IMG/VR virus record: IMGVR_UViG_3300035660_000363
Location: 1 to 21,442 of that record
Length of the DNA: 21,442 nucleotides
DNA from: a virus
Direction: 5' to 3' (one strand)
Below are positions 5,337-20,600 of this stretch, piece after piece. A program made the position numbers and the translations under genes. The notes under the pieces were generated by a model, which had not been told where the DNA came from, searched no databases, and saw nothing but the letters and a program-made list of their open reading frames with translations. Each line of letters begins with the position of its first letter. The first letter of the stretch is position 1.

Positions 5337-6479
5337 TTATGGTGTTTCGGTTATGACGCCGATGCTGTCGTTGTAGATGCTTACGCTGTCTTGGCGGAAG
5401 GTTACGACTGCGCCTTTCAAGTCGCGGACTGGGTTGCTGTAGTTTTCTATTCTCATCCACCGTTTGCGTCCTGTGAGTAGGGCGTATGCTTTGTCGAACA
5501 TGATGCTTACGCATCGGGTGAATGTGCCTGAAGCGTCGTCTGTGTAGTGCAGTGTCGGGTCGGTGCGCCAGATAATGTTGCATCCGAGCAATCTTTTTGG
5601 TAAGGCGTCAACTATGACGTTGTAAGCGAATGGTTCACTGTAGGTGCCTGCGGCTATGAGTGTGGTTGTGACGATGCTGTGCCAGAAAGCCTGCGGCGTC
5701 AGTATCAACGTGTTTGGGAAGTATTGGTCGTCCGTGATTTGCCTATGCAAGTCTACTAGGTCAGTGGTTCCAGCACCTGTGAACATGGTTTCGGCAGCGT
5801 TTCCTGAAAGTCCGCCGTTTACGGTTCCGTCGCCGTCTGTCGCCGTCTTCAACACTGTCAGGGCTAGGTTGCTTGCGTACTCGCCGATTTCAGCGCCCGC
5901 GTTGCGTATGTGCAGATCCAAAAGGTCGAATTGACTGTCCTCGATAAGGTCGTTTGCGAGCGGAAAGTTGATGCCGTAGATGTTACTGTAGTCCAAGTTT
6001 GCATAAGTCGTTGCCTTTGTTTCGTCAGGCATTATCGCGCCTGAACTTGTGGGCATGACGACGAATTGTCCGTCTGCCTCAATGTCCACACGAACCAGTT
6101 TGCCTTGGCCTTGACTGTGATCCAGCACTGCGATGCTGATGTCGCCTGTAATGTCTGCTTGCTTTGCACTGTCAAACAACATGGTGTGAATCTTGGTGGG
6201 GATGAGGTAAGCTGCGCCTGCGATGCCAGTTGTTCCTGACGAAGCCAGAAACTCTTTAACCATTCTTGCGAATGGGATGCTCCTGACGGATTCAGCGATT
6301 TGAGTTTTGTCCTCAGCACTTAGTTCTGCAATGCGTTGTTCGCGTTGGGTTTCGCCTGTGCCGAAAATGTCGAATTCGCTAGCGTCAAACACGCTTCTTG
6401 CTTCAAGTTCCTGTGTAACTTGCTTGGCTGCTTCTAGTTCCTTAGTTTTGTCGACGAGTTCTTTGAGACTCAGTACCAT
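5337..6479 (-). CDS. major capsid protein, HK97 fold, copy 2
   Basis: 380 aa, ATG start behind AAGGTGA. Clearly paralogous to the protein at 7048-8193: both have VDKT near residue 10-15, SGTTG(I/V)AGA.YLIP.K.H around residue 70-95, and near the C-terminus ALLTGRKRWMRIENYSNP, then GAVV..RQDSV..Y.D.I. N-terminal residues 1-55 form a charged helix (ELEAAKQVTQELEAR), as in HK97 delta or scaffold-like segments that may be cleaved by the protease. Having two complete, diverged copies is unusual. One may form hexamers and the other pentamers, or it may be a minor capsid protein. Confidence 0.75.
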   Translation of the reverse strand: MVLSLKELVDKTKELEAAKQVTQELEARSVFDASEFDIFGTGETQREQRIAELSAEDKTQIAESVRSIPFARMVKEFLASSGTTGIAGAAYLIPTKIHTMLFDSAKQADITGDISIAVLDHSQGQGKLVRVDIEADGQFVVMPTSSGAIMPDETKATTYANLDYSNIYGINFPLANDLIEDSQFDLLDLHIRNAGAEIGEYASNLALTVLKTATDGDGTVNGGLSGNAAETMFTGAGTTDLVDLHRQITDDQYFPNTLILTPQAFWHSIVTTTLIAAGTYSEPFAYNVIVDALPKRLLGCNIIWRTDPTLHYTDDASGTFTRCVSIMFDKAYALLTGRKRWMRIENYSNPVRDLKGAVVTFRQDSVSIYNDSIGVITETP

Positions 6480-13938: not shown

Positions 13939-15300
13939 TCACTTTCCTAGAAACACGAATCCCTGCCTATGCTGCCCCACGGTTTCCCGCGTCACAATCT
14001 CCACCGCGTCCAATGCGTCGTCATGTTGTCCTCTGGGAAACTGGACCCATTCGGTCCAGAACTCCGTCTTCATGTTCAACAGCGGATTCACTAGGATGCG
14101 GCTGCCCTCAAAATGGCTGCTCATAGGAATAAACCGCGACTCTTTATCTTTGACGGTTTGGCTCGTGACGATTGGCAAACCCTTCAACTCGGGAAGATAG
14201 GTTAAGATTTTTTGGAAGGCGTTGGTTTCCACGTAGATTTTGGCGTATTGGTTCATGTCGTGCAGGTGTTGCAACTTCCTAAGAAAATCGGGGAAGGCTA
14301 GGGTTTCGGCCCACACGTCTTCAAGGTACGCTTGGCCTGATTGCTTGTCGATGCTGAGTGTTGCGACTGATTGCATGTCGCCCTCGCCAAGGGCGGGATC
14401 CACGCCTGCGTAGCGCATGTTCGTGGTCTGTGGCGGCGTGGTCCATTCGTGAAGCCATTCGCTTTTGAGCAGGTCGCCCTCCATGCCTGTTGGGTCGTTT
14501 TGGTATTGGCAGTTAAAAATTATTGAGCCGACTTGTTTGCGTCTTTCCTCAAGCTTTTCAAGAGTCCAGTATTCGGGCCACAGTGGCGTGCCGTCTTTGG
14601 TGATGGATTGTTTGACGTCGTGCGGCCACGTTTGCAAGAGGTCGTCGTAGAGGTCTGCGTAGCTCCAGCGGGTTCCGATGACGATGATGGCGCCCCAAGG
14701 ATAAAGCGTTGGGTACAGTACCTTGTTGAACCAGAGTTGAACCTTTTCTATTTGGAGTCGGGTGCGGACGTTTTCTTCGTCGATGATGTCGTCGCACACG
14801 ATAAGATCGCTTCTTCCTCCCGTGATAGGCCCGAGCAAGCCTGACGCTTTGATCGTGGCGTTTTTGCTGATTTCTTTTCGGTTGATGATGATTTCGTGGC
14901 TTGTCCACCTCTTCGGAATCTCAGGCCTTAACTCGCCAAAGATTTCTATGAATCGTTCGTCACTCTCGATCCGCGTCAGAATCGCTGTGAGAATTTCTTC
15001 GGCGAGGCTCGCCGTCTTCGTTACAATGTTAATGTGAATGTCAGGATAATTTCCGATGAGCCACGACACGTAGTTAACCGTTGTTGTCTCCGTCTTCGCG
15101 TGGCCCCGAGGCCACAGCAACACGAAACGTTTCGTAGCGTCAGGCGCGCTTTTCAAGGGACTAAACTTGTGCTGCAGAAAATCGTACCATTCCACTTGAA
15201 ACTGAGCGTTACTGTACCCCATCAGTTCAGTGAAGACTTTCAGGTCGCTTCTTGCCGCTGTCGATTTGATTAAGGAACCTTGCTGCTTTTCTAACTGCAT
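13939..15300 (-). CDS. terL: terminase large subunit (TerL)
   Basis: 453 aa, ATG start. ATPase domain: Walker A-like WPRGHAKT (residues 63-70), Walker B LIVCDD with acidic D174-E175 nearby, and the coupling motif GTRWS (219-223). Nuclease domain: GVDPALGEG (metal ligand D301), YVETN (E358), and C-terminal HDDALDA (D428, D431). The full set needed for ATP-driven DNA packaging and headful or site-specific cutting is present. It overlaps the small terminase gene by 74 bases. The mid-protein phrases SYADLYDDLL and FNCQYQNDP are typical of archaeal and bacterial tailed-virus terminases. Confidence 0.93.
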   Translation of the reverse strand: MQLEKQQGSLIKSTAARSDLKVFTELMGYSNAQFQVEWYDFLQHKFSPLKSAPDATKRFVLLWPRGHAKTETTTVNYVSWLIGNYPDIHINIVTKTASLAEEILTAILTRIESDERFIEIFGELRPEIPKRWTSHEIIINRKEISKNATIKASGLLGPITGGRSDLIVCDDIIDEENVRTRLQIEKVQLWFNKVLYPTLYPWGAIIVIGTRWSYADLYDDLLQTWPHDVKQSITKDGTPLWPEYWTLEKLEERRKQVGSIIFNCQYQNDPTGMEGDLLKSEWLHEWTTPPQTTNMRYAGVDPALGEGDMQSVATLSIDKQSGQAYLEDVWAETLAFPDFLRKLQHLHDMNQYAKIYVETNAFQKILTYLPELKGLPIVTSQTVKDKESRFIPMSSHFEGSRILVNPLLNMKTEFWTEWVQFPRGQHDDALDAVEIVTRETVGQHRQGFVFLGK

Positions 15301-15742
15301 CGAGGTCTGACTCGTCGCCCTTCACCTCCACACGTTCCACCTTCAGTTCCTGCGCCTGCCTCGGCAAATCGCCAAGGCTTTGTAAGAGTTCACTTTGATC
15401 AACAAGAATCTCCCGCAAATTCTTCATCGCACCGTTATACTGATGCCAAAACCCCTTCTCCTTCAACCGCTCAATCGCCGCCCAACACTCATCAATATAC
15501 GCCTGAAACTGCCCCGTAACCACCTCGCGAAGCAAACTCACATCTTCCAAACCAAGCAAGTCGCCGAGCCAGCCGCCCCGCCGCGCCCAATCAACGTTCA
15601 AAGCATAAATGGAAACACCATATTCCACAGCTAAAGCCTCCTCCCTCTCCCGAACGTCCCGACCATCCTTATGAATAAGAAACAAACGACGACGACGCTC
15701 AAGAACCCGCGTGCTATTCTCAATGACCTTAGATTCACTCAA
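15227..15742 (-). CDS. terminase small subunit (TerS)-like protein
   Basis: 171 aa from a TTG at 15742, bounded upstream by an in-frame TGA; GGTGG lies about 7 bases before it. Residues 25-60 (GRDVREREEALAVEYGVSIY then WARRGGWL) look like the helix-turn-helix that recognises packaging DNA. Residues 65-125 are helical and could form the oligomer core (LLREVVTGQFQAYIDECWAA, YNGAMKNLREILVDQ). The C-terminal KGDESDLDAVRKAARFLNQI may dock the large subunit. Position directly before TerL with overlap strongly supports the call, though no sequence-specific TerS motif exists. Confidence 0.7.
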   Translation of the reverse strand: MSESKVIENSTRVLERRRRLFLIHKDGRDVREREEALAVEYGVSIYALNVDWARRGGWLGDLLGLEDVSLLREVVTGQFQAYIDECWAAIERLKEKGFWHQYNGAMKNLREILVDQSELLQSLGDLPRQAQELKVERVEVKGDESDLDAVRKAARFLNQIDSGKKRPESLH

Positions 15743-15745
15743 AGT

Positions 15746-15886
15746 TCAACCACCAAACCACATTTTCATTACGCTACGCCTACTACCTTTACGGGCACAA
15801 TAATTGAAACATTGAAGGTTTTGACGTGCCCAGTACCTAGGGACCCTGCTGTTGACTATTGTTATCATGCTTGCCATACTATGCAT
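15746..15886 (-). CDS. possible 46-aa leader ORF before TerS
   Basis: An ATG at 15886 opens 46 codons ending 3 bases before the TerS TTG. The product has CFNYCARKGSRRS and a Gly-ending tail. There is no ribosome site at its start, and the opposite strand is open too. The close spacing to TerS would allow translational coupling, but coding is doubtful. Confidence 0.2.
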   Translation of the reverse strand: MHSMASMITIVNSRVPRYWARQNLQCFNYCARKGSRRSVMKMWFGG

Positions 15887-15905
15887 TGTTGTTATCATAC
15901 TATGT
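15859..15905. repeat. short direct repeats upstream of the terminase operon
   Basis: TTGTTATCAT occurs at 15859-15868 and 15889-15898, and CATACTATG at 15875-15883 and 15897-15905. The nested pairs lie 120-160 bases upstream of the TerS start, in promoter range for the packaging operon. Possibly regulator binding sites. Confidence 0.4.
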
Positions 15906-15941
15906 GCTGTTGTTGTGCTGATCAGTCACTACTACAGCGTG

Positions 15942-15971
15942 ACACTATTATGAGTTAGTTGTTAGTGGTGT
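15942..15971. repeat. 30-bp imperfect palindrome, copy A
   Basis: Begins ACACTATTA and ends GTTAGTGGTGT, with central GAGTTAGTT. It aligns without gaps to copies at 16353 and 16462. The outer ACAC...GTGT arms are inverted. Candidate operator or replication-protein site. Confidence 0.55.
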
Positions 15972-15994
15972 GTTATTGTAACTCGGTGGGGAAT

Positions 15995-16016
15995 TGTGCT
16001 TCGCGGGCGGAGCACA
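15995..16016. other. GC-rich inverted repeat after the 59-aa gene
   Basis: TGTGCT and AGCACA (6-bp arms) flank a GC-rich 10-base loop, starting 4 bases after the stop of the 59-aa gene on the minus strand. There is no T-tract next to it, so termination is uncertain; it could protect the mRNA end. Confidence 0.3.
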
Positions 16017-16019
16017 CTG

Positions 16020-16199
16020 TCAAGACTCACGACTTGAGAAGCCGCAGTCAAACAAGGCGTGCTCTAGGGCCCGGGTTAAGCGCGTGACTTCTAGTTCTAA
16101 GAAGCCAAGACGATTCTGCTTTCTTAACTCATCGCCTTTATGGCTTGCGCGATACCTCTGCATCTGTTTGGCTTTATCCTCTTTTCTTGCATAGGGCAT
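16020..16199 (-). CDS. small basic helical protein, 59 aa
   Basis: ATG at 16199 to TGA at 16020-16022. A GAGATGA ribosome site lies about 7 bases upstream. The protein starts MPYARKEDKAKQMQRYRASH, then has KGDELRKQNRLGFLELE and an amphipathic RLTRALEHALFDCGF. The basic 'KedKakqmqRyR' opening is common in small DNA-associated phage proteins. It is the only probable gene in the 800-base spacer between the two operons, and so may be a regulator acting on the palindromic repeats around it. That role is inferred from position only. Confidence 0.5.
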   Translation of the reverse strand: MPYARKEDKAKQMQRYRASHKGDELRKQNRLGFLELEVTRLTRALEHALFDCGFSSRES

Positions 16200-16309
16200 A
16201 ACTATTCATCTCAGTTACTGTTAGGTTGCTGGTTGCAGCGTTCTTGTTCTGCAGCGTGATGTTGTTACTGTTGCCGGTTACTGATTGTTGTCTGATGTCT
16301 TACGAGAGT

Positions 16310-16327
16310 AACTGACAGTTGTCAGTT
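16310..16327. repeat. perfect 8-bp inverted repeat
   Basis: AACTGACA-GT-TGTCAGTT. The symmetry and 2-base spacer are typical of a dimeric helix-turn-helix operator. It lies 111 bases upstream of the 59-aa gene start. Confidence 0.5.
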
Positions 16328-16352
16328 GACACAGTGTAAAGGTGTAACAAAC

Positions 16353-16382
16353 ACACCACTACAAGTTAATTGTTACTGGTGT
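16353..16382. repeat. 30-bp imperfect palindrome, copy B
   Basis: Begins ACACCACTACAAG and ends TTGTTACTGGTGT. Arms ACACCA/TGGTGT are perfectly inverted. It is followed by AAAC, as is copy C. Confidence 0.55.
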
Positions 16383-16461
16383 AAACAACACACCCACACT
16401 ACGCCAAGTTGCTGCCACACTATCAACCTGTGAGTTAGATAAGAAGCATGACAGCATAAAG

Positions 16462-16491
16462 ACACCATTACAAATTAGTTGTTAGCGGTGT
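16462..16491. repeat. 30-bp imperfect palindrome, copy C
   Basis: Begins ACACCATTACAAA and ends TTGTTAGCGGTGT, 109 bases from copy B. It lies about 50 bases beyond the last gene of the small-gene operon. Confidence 0.55.
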
Positions 16492-16505
16492 AAACTCTAT
16501 ACCCC

Positions 16506-16521
16506 TACTGATTAATTAGTA
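16506..16521. repeat. 16-bp near-perfect palindrome
   Basis: TACTGATTAATTAGTA is symmetric except for one base pair. A/T-rich and close to the end of the small-gene operon; possible operator. Confidence 0.35.
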
Positions 16522-16543
16522 ACACACACTACCCTTGTCGCCG

Positions 16544-16633
16544 TCAATGTTGTGAGGGGGGTGTCTTGCACTTCCAACATTTGGTAAACTGGAGTAGGTT
16601 GTAGTTTCCGCATTTAGGGCATTTCCAAATCAT
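16544..16633 (-). CDS. zinc-ribbon mini-protein, 29 aa
   Basis: The ATG overlaps the stop of the upstream 69-aa gene (ATGA). The whole product is one zinc ribbon: MIWKCPKCGNYNLLQFTKCW followed by KCKTPP, giving CPKC-x9-CWKC. It is the last gene of the small-gene operon. A single treble-clef or ribbon unit with no room for another domain suggests an adaptor or nucleic-acid-binding peptide. Confidence 0.55.
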   Translation of the reverse strand: MIWKCPKCGNYNLLQFTKCWKCKTPPSQH

Positions 16634-16839
16634 GTGGTTTCCTTCTTAGCTGTGGTTATCCATTCTATTATGTGGGGTATGTGTTCTGACGCGTTTTCTA
16701 AGGCTTTTTGGACTGTTGGATTTTTGGATTGTCTGTTTAGTCGGTTGATTTCTAGTTCGAGTTCGCATGCGGTTTGGATGAGTTGGTCGAAAGTCAACGT
16801 TTTGGGTGTGTCAATGTTTGGGTGTTTGAGGCATGCCAT
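16630..16839 (-). CDS. helical protein, 69 aa
   Basis: ATG start with AAGGTTACC upstream. Mostly helix: LTFDQLIQTACELELEINRL, then basic NRQSKNP, then VQKALENASEHIPHIIEWIT. A short coiled coil is likely. It is coupled to the 29-aa zinc ribbon downstream by ATGA, so the two may work together. Family not recognised. Confidence 0.55.
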   Translation of the reverse strand: MACLKHPNIDTPKTLTFDQLIQTACELELEINRLNRQSKNPTVQKALENASEHIPHIIEWITTAKKETT

Positions 16840-16851
16840 AAGGTAACCTTT

Positions 16852-16959
16852 TCATTCGAGTAGGATTCTGCCGCCGCAGTTTTCGCAGATTGTTAGGTTT
16901 GGGTAGTGTTTCAGTTTGGGTTTTTGGCATTTGCAGATGTGTTTGTAGGTGGGAGTCAT
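16852..16959 (-). CDS. zinc-ribbon mini-protein, 35 aa
   Basis: ATG at 16959 overlaps the stop of the preceding 45-aa gene (ATGA). The product reads MTPTYKHICKCQKPKLKHYP, then ITIC-like NLTICENCGGRILLE. C-x-C and C-x2-C-G-G form a probable zinc site. Too short for anything but a binding module. Confidence 0.5.
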   Translation of the reverse strand: MTPTYKHICKCQKPKLKHYPNLTICENCGGRILLE

Positions 16960-17093
16960 GGGTAGGGTTCAACCTTGCTTCTGAGCAGCAGTTTGCCGTC
17001 CAACGTTACGAAGTCAACGTGATCGTCGAAGTGCAGTTCATAGTGCGGTTCTGGGTCGCTTCTGCGAATGATGAGTCTGGGTTTTTCAGTCAT
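16956..17093 (-). CDS. hypothetical protein, 45 aa
   Basis: ATG at 17093, 10 bases after the upstream stop; the stop overlaps the next ATG. The product (MTEKPRLIIRRSDPEPHYEL, then HFDDHVDFVTLDGKLLLRSK) looks like three beta strands of a small barrel. Codon use and overlaps support coding. Function unknown. Confidence 0.5.
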   Translation of the reverse strand: MTEKPRLIIRRSDPEPHYELHFDDHVDFVTLDGKLLLRSKVEPYP

Positions 17094-17103
17094 GGTTCTG
17101 CGC

Positions 17104-17358
17104 CTAGTAGAAGAGGTTGTTCCAGCATTTCAAGTGATAATGAATCCTCTTGCCGTTTCCTCTTACTCTTCTTGCAACTATGATTTCGCCTATCGTGAGT
17201 AAACCGCCACACTTTCTGCATTTCAGAGTGAACCCTCGCTTTTTGAGCCTTAAATATGTGGCTTGTGAAAGTTTGATGTTACAAGTCATAGTTTTGCGCC
17301 GCCGATACACAAGGCAGGGACGAAAGGAGAAGAATGATTGTTCATAGAAGATTCTCAT
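17104..17358 (-). CDS. C2HC-type zinc-finger protein
   Basis: Start uncertain: ATG at 17358 (85 aa, with GGAAGGTG 15 bases upstream), GTG at 17376 (90 aa) or ATG at 17289 (61 aa). The C-terminal 60 residues are the recognisable part: FTLKCRKCGGLLTIGEIIV, then a basic RRVRGNGKR and HYHLKCW. This C-x2-C-G...GE.(i/v)v.r....H.H..C layout is typical of small zinc fingers that bind nucleic acid or protein in archaea. The first 25 residues are basic and less convincing as protein. Confidence 0.55.
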   Translation of the reverse strand: MRIFYEQSFFSFRPCLVYRRRKTMTCNIKLSQATYLRLKKRGFTLKCRKCGGLLTIGEIIVARRVRGNGKRIHYHLKCWNNLFY

Positions 17359-17368
17359 GTGCCAGCGT

Positions 17369-17566
17369 TTACGCACCTTCCCACGTTTGCTTGAACAGTT
17401 TCCAGAATTTTTGGAGCAGATGAAATTTCCAAGTGAGAATTAATGTGGAGAGGAAAGTGGTTATGCTGATGGCGATGGTTATTGTTAAGTTGCCAGTGAA
17501 TTGGTAGCCGAAGAACCCTAGGACGAAAGCAAGTATTAATGATCCTTCTGGGAACGGACTGATCAT
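17369..17566 (-). CDS. small membrane protein, 65 aa
   Basis: ATG start. Two membrane segments are visible: GSLILAFVLGFFGYQF and LTITIAISITTFLSTLILTW, followed by an aromatic basic tail (KFHLLQKFWKLFKQTW). The frame is open further upstream, and the added codons would give a third hydrophobic segment (ALILVICGAILFVMI) after a basic CKLKR, so the true start may be a non-standard codon near 17620. It lies in a run of small membrane genes. Confidence 0.55.
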   Translation of the reverse strand: MISPFPEGSLILAFVLGFFGYQFTGNLTITIAISITTFLSTLILTWKFHLLQKFWKLFKQTWEGA

Positions 17567-17615
17567 GACGAAGAGGATGGCTCCGCATATTACGAGGATT
17601 AGGGCCCGTTTGAGT

Positions 17616-18089
17616 TTACACAGTTTCGCCGTTGAGGCTGAACCCCCATGTAGGCCAAACGGTTGCTGTCAGTGGGATTGTTAGGTTGAGCCAGCCTTCA
17701 ACTTCATAGTTTGGTTCTAAGAGAGTGTTGTTTGCTTGCCATTCAAGAGTCCAGTCTGCGGGCAGGCCCGTTGTGGTTATGGTGACGGTTAAGTTGACGT
17801 TGCCAATGTTGACGACTGTCAGATTGCTGAAGGTTTGAACTGTGCCCTTCTGGCATGTGCCCCAGTCAATCGTTGTTCCGTTAGATTTCAGGGTGCCGTT
17901 GAGGTACATGGCTAGGCCGTAACTTGTGATTGTGCCATCTTGCGGATAGTAGTAGTTTACGGCTGTTTCAGCGGCGATTGCGCCTGCCAAGAAGAAAGCT
18001 AGGATTAGGCCTGAATATTTTATGAGTCGGTTCGTTCCTAGTGTACCTCCATCTTTTTTATCGTCCCATCTTCCGTAATTTGCGGTCAA
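17616..18089 (-). CDS. membrane-anchored ectodomain protein with N-glycosylation sequons
   Basis: 157 aa from a TTG at 18089 that overlaps the upstream gene; no other in-frame start lies before the membrane segment. A basic cytosolic part is followed by one membrane span (about residues 24-44, YSGLILAFFLAGAIAA). The outside part is a beta-sandwich pattern common in archaeal surface proteins: W/C-G, 'TFSNLTVVNIGNVNLTVTIT' and 'LPADWTLEW'. Six N-x-T sequons (N64, N70, N89, N99, N120, N135) suggest glycosylation outside the cell. A role in virion surface, exclusion or egress is possible. Confidence 0.65.
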   Translation of the reverse strand: MTANYGRWDDKKDGGTLGTNRLIKYSGLILAFFLAGAIAAETAVNYYYPQDGTITSYGLAMYLNGTLKSNGTTIDWGTCQKGTVQTFSNLTVVNIGNVNLTVTITTTGLPADWTLEWQANNTLLEPNYEVEGWLNLTIPLTATVWPTWGFSLNGETV

Positions 18090-19490: not shown

Positions 19491-19605
19491 TCTTGCAACT
19501 CTGGTTTTTTATACATCCGTCACATACCCAACCAAAGAAAGGCATATAGCCACTTGACCTTTTAGGGCAATCAGAACATACAGCGGTACTTGTTTGAGTT
19601 GTCAT
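19480..19605 (-). CDS. zinc-ribbon mini-protein, 41 aa
   Basis: ATG at 19605 overlaps the GTPase stop (ATGA), and its own TGA lies inside the start of the GAP1-like gene. The product has CSDC (residues 10-13) and CDGC (28-31) with 14 residues between, plus a lone Cys37, consistent with one zinc site. Wedged between the GTPase and the GAP1-like protein, it may bridge them. Confidence 0.6.
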   Translation of the reverse strand: MTTQTSTAVCSDCPKRSSGYMPFFGWVCDGCIKNQSCKNEA

Positions 19606-20600
19606 GAGGCGAACGTTCCTAGATAGTTGATGAGTTCAACGTAGCTTTGCGCCCAATACTTCGGAATACGCAGGTTCACTTCCATCTCAATCTTGTCCTG
19701 CCCGTCAGGCCACTTCTGAGGTTTGCCCTGCGCATCTTTGGCAACTTTGACGAAGCTGGGGAAAAACTTGAGTTGCATGTTCGGGTTGCGTTGCTTCTCA
19801 AACTTCAGCAAACTCGTAGTCTGAGGAAAGAACGTTTCCATGAAACTTTGTATGCCCTGCCCCGTTGTGTCGTCTAGGTCTATGCCCATTTCCTGAGCGT
19901 AAGGCATCAGTTTATCCCACTTCGTCACCACAACCGCAATAGCCTTAATCGGTTTGCCCTTACTGTTCTCCTTGTAACTCATGATGTCCTGCGCAAAATT
20001 GTAGAGGTTCGCGTCTGGATCAACGCTGATGCCGCTGACTTCTTCGTCTTCAGTTTCCTTCTCCAGTTGCAAACCGTCTTGAAAGGCTAGGGCCCGGGAC
20101 GCTGGTGCAATGAGAACGTAGCCTTCGCAGTCACGCACGTAGTTGATTAGGTTTGAACTGATATTGTACGCTTCTTGCGACGTGGGATCTCTGCGGCGAT
20201 GCTGAATTGACTGGATCATTGATTGGAGTTTTTCGCCTGCCAAGTCGCAGATGGGAATGTTGATTTGTTTGGAAGTTCCGAATCGTGCGCCCCAGCGACA
20301 TAGTAGTCCGTCTTCATGCCGTTCTGCGCTTGCCGCGTCAGTTTTAGGTGGAAAGTGGCCCGTGCGCATCTTGCTAACGTAGTCAATGATGTTTGTGCTG
20401 CCCGGCAGGGTTCGACACGCAAAGTTCGGAAGCAAATGGCTTAGTGTCTGCGAAGTCAAAACTAAAAGAGTGGAGACGGTGGTTTTGCCGCTTCCAATCG
20501 TGCCAACCATAGCAAACTTCGTCTTGAACTTGAACGTCTTGCTCAGCGGCTCAACCTGCGTCGGCTGTGACTTTCTGAATAGCGGTTTGAATATGCTCAA
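19602..20600 (-). CDS. P-loop GTPase (double-GTPase/TRAFAC-like)
   Basis: 332 aa from a TTG overlapping the upstream stop (TTGA). G1/Walker A is GTIGSGKT (33-40) on the strand FKTKFAMV; GHFPPKT (81-87) fits a switch-I Thr; G3 is DLAGE (119-123) after INIPIC; then YVLIAPASRA where a 'llviDps' strand is usual; G4 is VVVTKWDKL (T226-K227-W228-D229), giving guanine specificity. This arrangement (GxxGSGKT, G.(f/w)P..T, D.aGE, vvtKwD) is that of the single GTPase domain in DO-GTPase2-type proteins. C-terminal 70 residues are beta plus a helix. Coupled to a membrane protein upstream and a zinc ribbon and GAP1-like gene downstream; probably a membrane-proximal switch. Confidence 0.75.
   Translation of the reverse strand: MSIFKPLFRKSQPTQVEPLSKTFKFKTKFAMVGTIGSGKTTVSTLLVLTSQTLSHLLPNFACRTLPGSTNIIDYVSKMRTGHFPPKTDAASAERHEDGLLCRWGARFGTSKQINIPICDLAGEKLQSMIQSIQHRRRDPTSQEAYNISSNLINYVRDCEGYVLIAPASRALAFQDGLQLEKETEDEEVSGISVDPDANLYNFAQDIMSYKENSKGKPIKAIAVVVTKWDKLMPYAQEMGIDLDDTTGQGIQSFMETFFPQTTSLLKFEKQRNPNMQLKFFPSFVKVAKDAQGKPQKWPDGQDKIEMEVNLRIPKYWAQSYVELINYLGTFAS

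Follow-up and report, generated by a model that had tools for sequence, protein, structure and literature searches.

The stretch analysed, hereafter the window, is the whole of virus record IMGVR_UViG_3300035660_000363, at 21,442 bases. Its gene for the terminase large subunit, terL (13939..15300, minus strand; phrog_38 match, E 2e-95), has 51 relatives among viral contigs, and the terminase relatives in bacterial and archaeal genomes amount to four loci, all in Bathyarchaeota assemblies and with identities of up to 67%; a profile search of the class Bathyarchaeia detected the terminase in 3 of 256 genomes. From the kinship of the terminase gene with these loci, the window most likely stems from a tailed virus with Bathyarchaeia as its host, and it has the probable host group and the head-tail gene set in common with the tailed viruses of Bathyarchaeia already described (PMC10848311). 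As the contigs of relatives extend to 35-59 kb, the window is probably incomplete. The packaging and structural operon starts with a terS-like gene (15227..15742, minus strand), named by its position and by its kinship to genes in L004 (63%) and L006 (48%); as a query against viral contigs it returned no match, though these relatives occur there. The product of the window gene at 5337-6479 is probably the major capsid protein. The 332-aa protein encoded at 19602-20600 on the minus strand shows sub-threshold similarity to the double-GTPase domains PF19993 and PF19975.

The spacer considered here lies upstream of terS, and the genes within it and on both sides of it, with the long frames chosen, are all on the minus strand. 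While it had been taken for an 800-base region in the sequence-only reading, it is in fact smaller: a 29-aa zinc-ribbon-like open reading frame (MIWKCPKCGNYNLLQFTKCWKCKTPPSQH, minus strand), unlisted in the frame list and with a similar stretch seen by eye in L030, fills 16544-16633, and the non-coding parts are 15743-16019 and 16200-16543. Read in the minus-strand direction, this frame is followed by a 16-bp palindrome (16506-16521, one mismatched pair) next to the third of three larger palindromes, then by this copy 3 itself, by copy 2, by a separate 18-bp palindrome (AACTGACAGTTGTCAGTT, 16310..16327, one mismatched pair) at 25 bp from copy 2, and by CAGTAAC words at 16283, 16270 and 16220, with one more inside copy 2. 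There follow a 59-aa gene (16020..16199, minus strand) and, directly after its stop, a G+C-rich 22-bp inverted repeat (15995-16016), perhaps a terminator or a processing hairpin. Next come copy 1, a 21-bp tandem repeat of 1.9 copies that contains TTGTTAT (15875..15914, plus strand), a conserved element and finally terS. A DNA search with the whole spacer against phages and plasmids gave no match. The small genes to the right of the spacer (16630-18089) have relatives of 43-81% identity in L212 (1460-2816) and L030 (1391-1805), in a mosaic in which the relatives in L212 adjoin differently built terS and terL genes, without any long spacer.

The three imperfect palindromes of 30 nt, all on the plus strand and aligning without gaps, lie at 15942-15971 (copy 1), 16353-16382 (copy 2) and 16462-16491 (copy 3), just as had been proposed, and alignment, matrix scan and shuffling bear them out. 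Their consensus is ACAC[TC]A[TC]TA[TC][GA]A[GA]TTA[GA]TTGTTA[GC][TC]GGTGT, with 22 of 30 columns identical in all copies when counted by eye; the motif printed earlier (ACAC.A.TA......TTA.TTGTTA..GGTGT), at 32 letters, had two dots too many. Conservation is stronger in the right half, TTA.TTGTTA..GGTGT, and all copies have the same orientation. Self-complementarity extends to 18 of 30 positions in copy 1, 22 in copy 2 and 20 in copy 3; a pattern for the half-site is ACACC-N2-TA(A)CAA, and one A is missing from the left arm, which makes the symmetry imperfect near the middle. Copy 1 is situated 200 bp upstream of the terS start, copies 2 and 3 at 154 and 263 bp upstream of the start of the 59-aa gene. 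The spacing is irregular (411 and 109 bp), and copies 2 and 3, at 10.4 helical turns of 10.5 bp, are not neatly in phase. The similarity of these two extends beyond the palindrome to 52 nt at 77% (16349..16400 and 16458..16509, plus strand), and that of copy 1 to either is confined to the palindromic core of 30-31 nt.

How far does this exceed chance? In 200 dinucleotide-preserving shuffles of 15743-16629, the palindromicity by itself proved ordinary, the best value of 22/30 being attained in 23 of them, but the best pair identity of 25/30 and the best triple sum of 50 were never matched, the shuffles reaching at most 23/30 and 39 (0/200 in both cases). It is thus the repetition combined with the symmetry that is significant. 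A matrix built from the copies scores each of them at 38 bits or more and the best other site in the 21,442-base record at 12.8 bits; the scan found no fourth copy in the record. The palindromes are a true, non-random feature, if one of an ordinary kind.

In the four relatives that have a whole spacer of the same type (L005, L006, L008 and L039), no palindrome copies were found; of L004, the closest terminase relative, only about 90 bases before terS are covered. Among 24 records including the window, a set from which very near relatives may be absent, a search at up to 3 mismatches matched the window only. The same tolerance gave 3 matches among 256 Bathyarchaeia genomes; since the reversed control pattern gave more (15 matches in 12 genomes), these are chance matches. 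When L004-L054 and the window were searched de novo for palindromes that recur, the family turned up in the window only, and the other two hits were GC-rich repeats in L052 and L053. Among public viral contigs, the symmetric 16-base core occurs in 32 stretches, each with a single site, and two full copies in one stretch were found in none of these. The half-site occurs in at least 120 such stretches; the best by matrix among the matches listed resemble one another and look, by eye, like a recurring coding word. Single motif-like palindromes of 24.1-25.7 bits were seen in L060 (7172), L067 (7274), L085 (1996) and L068 (991). Judged by the sequences compared, the palindromes are private to the window virus. 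Of the two outcomes that had been named in advance as refuting the motif, random occurrence elsewhere is not observed in the record; absence from the relatives is.

The element before terS (15733..15840, minus strand) has a different distribution, being present in all six comparable viruses. It emerged from an alignment of the DNA that precedes terS or the first gene of the operon in the window, L004 (1-105), L005 (4540-4645), L006 (8735-8840), L008 (9215-9310) and L039 (8965-9070), and consists of AAACCT(T/C)CA, an A-rich stretch flanked by inverted ACCTT and AAGGT, the sequence (C)GTAAAGG, which one of the six lacks, and a leader resembling GGTGG. Since terS is separated from the element by further genes in L006 and L039, it belongs to the start of the operon. 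We read it as a candidate late promoter with control sites or, alternatively, as a candidate packaging signal. Copy 1 lies 122 bp upstream of it.

The 59-aa gene has homologues in two of the 24 records, two further chance-level hits aside: one in G012 (56% over 50 aa, E 7e-13) and one in G015 (E 8e-6). By virtue of these homologues, the gene is real. Scans of viral contigs for further relatives gave none at first and, with the three-row alignment, one locus that was already known; among named phages there was only a match at E = 5, among solved structures the best match had E 0.32 and none was to a bZIP protein, and no bZIP family of Pfam matched up to E 10. The predicted model, built from a three-sequence input, is a single helix of 46 residues (6-51, mean pLDDT 85) with a basic N-terminal half and a zipper-like C-terminal half, in which L31, L34, V38, L41, L45 and A48 form, by eye, an a/d pattern. 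The predicted layout is thus of the bZIP type, a basic stretch followed by a leucine zipper in one helix; that of a ribbon-helix-helix protein, an N-terminal strand followed by two helices, is absent from the model. A basic zipper contacts about 10 bp, far below the 30 bp of the present sites. The proposal that the 59-aa protein binds the palindromes is plausible by the predicted shape of the protein, but its two homologues sit among probable head genes in records without the site: in G012 behind a 385-aa gene resembling, by eye, the probable capsid gene of the window, and in G015, likewise by eye, with neighbours that are probably a head-morphogenesis gene on one side and a head protease on the other, and neither record carries the palindrome at up to 3 mismatches. 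That the binding protein is the 59-aa product is possible, if somewhat improbable; it may also be a regulator encoded beyond the contig. Near the spacer, four relatives keep a protein of 157-200 aa, probably a winged helix by eye (L005 2054-2533, L006 5915-6469, L008 6619-7092, L039 5623-6225, minus strand), which has no homologue in the window and no significant Pfam match.

What, then, may be the role of the palindromes? Symmetry, repetition and non-coding position all support putative sites for a dimeric protein, as had been suggested, and of the two functions put forward for such sites, we favour operators over an origin of replication, because the copies precede both the 59-aa gene and the conserved element on the terS side. 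The three palindromes would serve as operators of a DNA-binding protein that is small, symmetric (a dimer or a tetramer) and encoded by a tailed virus of Bathyarchaeia, a reading that we consider as apt to be right as wrong. The half-sites, ACACC..TA(A)CAA, would be read by a dimer. Autoregulation of the 59-aa gene would fall to copies 2 and 3, and copy 1, at a distance of about 120 bp upstream, would act on the late packaging promoter, perhaps via cooperative spreading or looping. Operators are expected as several related palindromes in non-coding DNA, above chance, and this is what the spacer contains; they are also expected to be conserved in relatives, and neither the four whole-spacer relatives nor the 23 other records show them. 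Further points against operators are that homologues of the 59-aa protein occur without sites, that a basic zipper would cover far fewer base pairs than the sites have, that copies 2 and 3 are not neatly in phase, and that there is no clear TATA box beside the palindrome copies, the best 8-mers matching at 7 of 8 positions, one of them within copy 3.

The strongest rival is a replication origin, in which the palindromes, the 21-bp tandem repeat and the TAACAA words would be binding sites of an initiator, iteron-like or akin to origin recognition boxes (ORB); we regard it as unlikely, yet well ahead of the other alternatives. The spacer is enriched in TAACAA (7 against 1.0 expected, three of the seven belonging to palindrome copies) and in CAGTAAC (4 against 0.3 expected), and holds further palindromes besides the tandem repeat. 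Moreover, the cumulative GC skew has its global minimum within the spacer upstream of terS in all four relatives of the same spacer type (G002, G003, G005 and G019), and in the window the curve dips locally at 15792. However, the genes of these four records diverge from the spacer, and the G-richness of the coding strands to its left and right is enough to yield a V-shaped skew; this coding-strand control weakens the argument from skew. At fourfold sites the strand effect is weak, and for genes in the terS direction it is absent in the window (-0.171 against -0.179). In a fifth record, G012, the minimum falls inside terL and not before terS, and in the window, the genes of which do not diverge, the global minimum is at the edge. 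In the four relatives, the skew check that had been suggested is confounded by the divergent genes. Archaeal origins with ORB elements likewise combine repeated elements with a large non-coding region (PMC3936714, PMC5333045), but an ORB core sequence has no match within 3 mismatches in 15500-16800, and the window also differs from them in having no strong AT-rich unwinding element: the best 50-bp stretch is 70% AT, a value matched by 1.6% of positions, and the AT content of the non-coding DNA that separates and flanks the copies is 45-58%. No Orc1/Cdc6 was identified in the window contig. Small copy number and irregular distances also speak against iterons.

Rather less probable is a second alternative, by which the palindromes are functionless leftovers of a recent local duplication or of a decayed mobile repeat. 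The 52 nt common to copies 2 and 3 and the restriction of the motif to the window record would fit such an origin; copy 1, however, shares merely the palindromic core with the others, and most symmetric positions of that core have been retained. As to RNA hairpins in leader transcripts, active in processing or attenuation instead of DNA binding, minus-strand folding gave -11.0 kcal/mol for copy 2 (z -2.2) and -6.9 kcal/mol for copy 3 (z -1.8), but copy 1 makes a weak hairpin (-2.1 kcal/mol, z -0.87), for which reason we prefer symmetry at the level of DNA; in addition, the base changes between copies do not, by eye, preserve pairs, and a comparison with Rfam up to E 1 yielded nothing but a microRNA family, matched far under its gathering score, so that we hold hairpins to be highly improbable. 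Scarcely credible is a recombinase reading, in which the palindromes would be dif-, lox- or att-like targets of an enzyme of the tyrosine or serine type and the 59-aa gene a cassette enclosed by direct copies. On both sides of the gene, in direct orientation, a central 6 bp does have an arm of about 12 bp to its left and right, which recalls the archaeal dif site, where 6 nt separate two inverted repeats of 11 nt (PMC8371274); yet two of the six central positions vary between copies where dif and lox have identical centres, the ten window proteins scanned include no recombinase match, and there is no sign of excision.

Operators, by comparison, have precedents in other archaeal viruses and plasmids. 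In virus SIRV1, the dimeric 6.6-kDa protein SvtR occupies its own promoter as well as the promoter region of a structural gene, there at about 80 nt ahead of the TATA/BRE, and its putative consensus is an imperfect inverted repeat (PMC5569661). Both SvtR and AvtR of AFV6 are ribbon-helix-helix proteins that likewise have imperfect inverted-repeat sites at several places of the virus (PMC5569661), and the way in which SvtR sites are divided between the regulator's promoter and a structural gene resembles the layout in the window; in contrast, the window sites differ in sequence and length, the 59-aa candidate is predicted to be one helix, and the hosts of these viruses are not Bathyarchaeia. 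Stf76 of pSSVx, with 76 aa, binds its own promoter at two places, of which the distal one lies 84 nt ahead of the start site, and together with ORF80 of pRN1 it offers a second case in which a small protein has a pair of palindromic sites in front of its gene (PMC4027180). There, however, a winged-helix protein recognizes TTAA-N7-TTAA sites 60 bp apart (PMC4027180), whereas the window has 30-bp sites 109 bp apart and a third one beyond the gene. The best-fitting precedent is a small dimeric protein of a virus which represses its own gene and, from sites far upstream of the promoter, restrains a late one, as with SvtR (PMC5569661) and, where sites in the protein's own promoter are concerned, Stf76 (PMC4027180); the window, with two sites upstream of a small gene and one upstream of the late operon, fits this layout.

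Carrying the operator reading further, the spacer could be a compact control hub, in which a bZIP-like 59-aa protein would bind the palindromes and thereby couple its own synthesis to late packaging transcription and perhaps to the start of replication, although we consider this a long shot. The bZIP architecture is usually associated with eukaryotes.

What would the locus mean for the viruses of Bathyarchaeia? Gene control in these viruses looks little studied: in the main text of an article dedicated to them, the words 'origin' and 'intergenic' do not occur, and spacer features of the present kind are not described under either term (PMC10848311). The terS-side element, present in six of six viruses, would give the group a candidate late promoter or packaging signal, and, if the operator reading is true, three short pieces of DNA and a 59-aa protein would make up a small regulator-operator pair.
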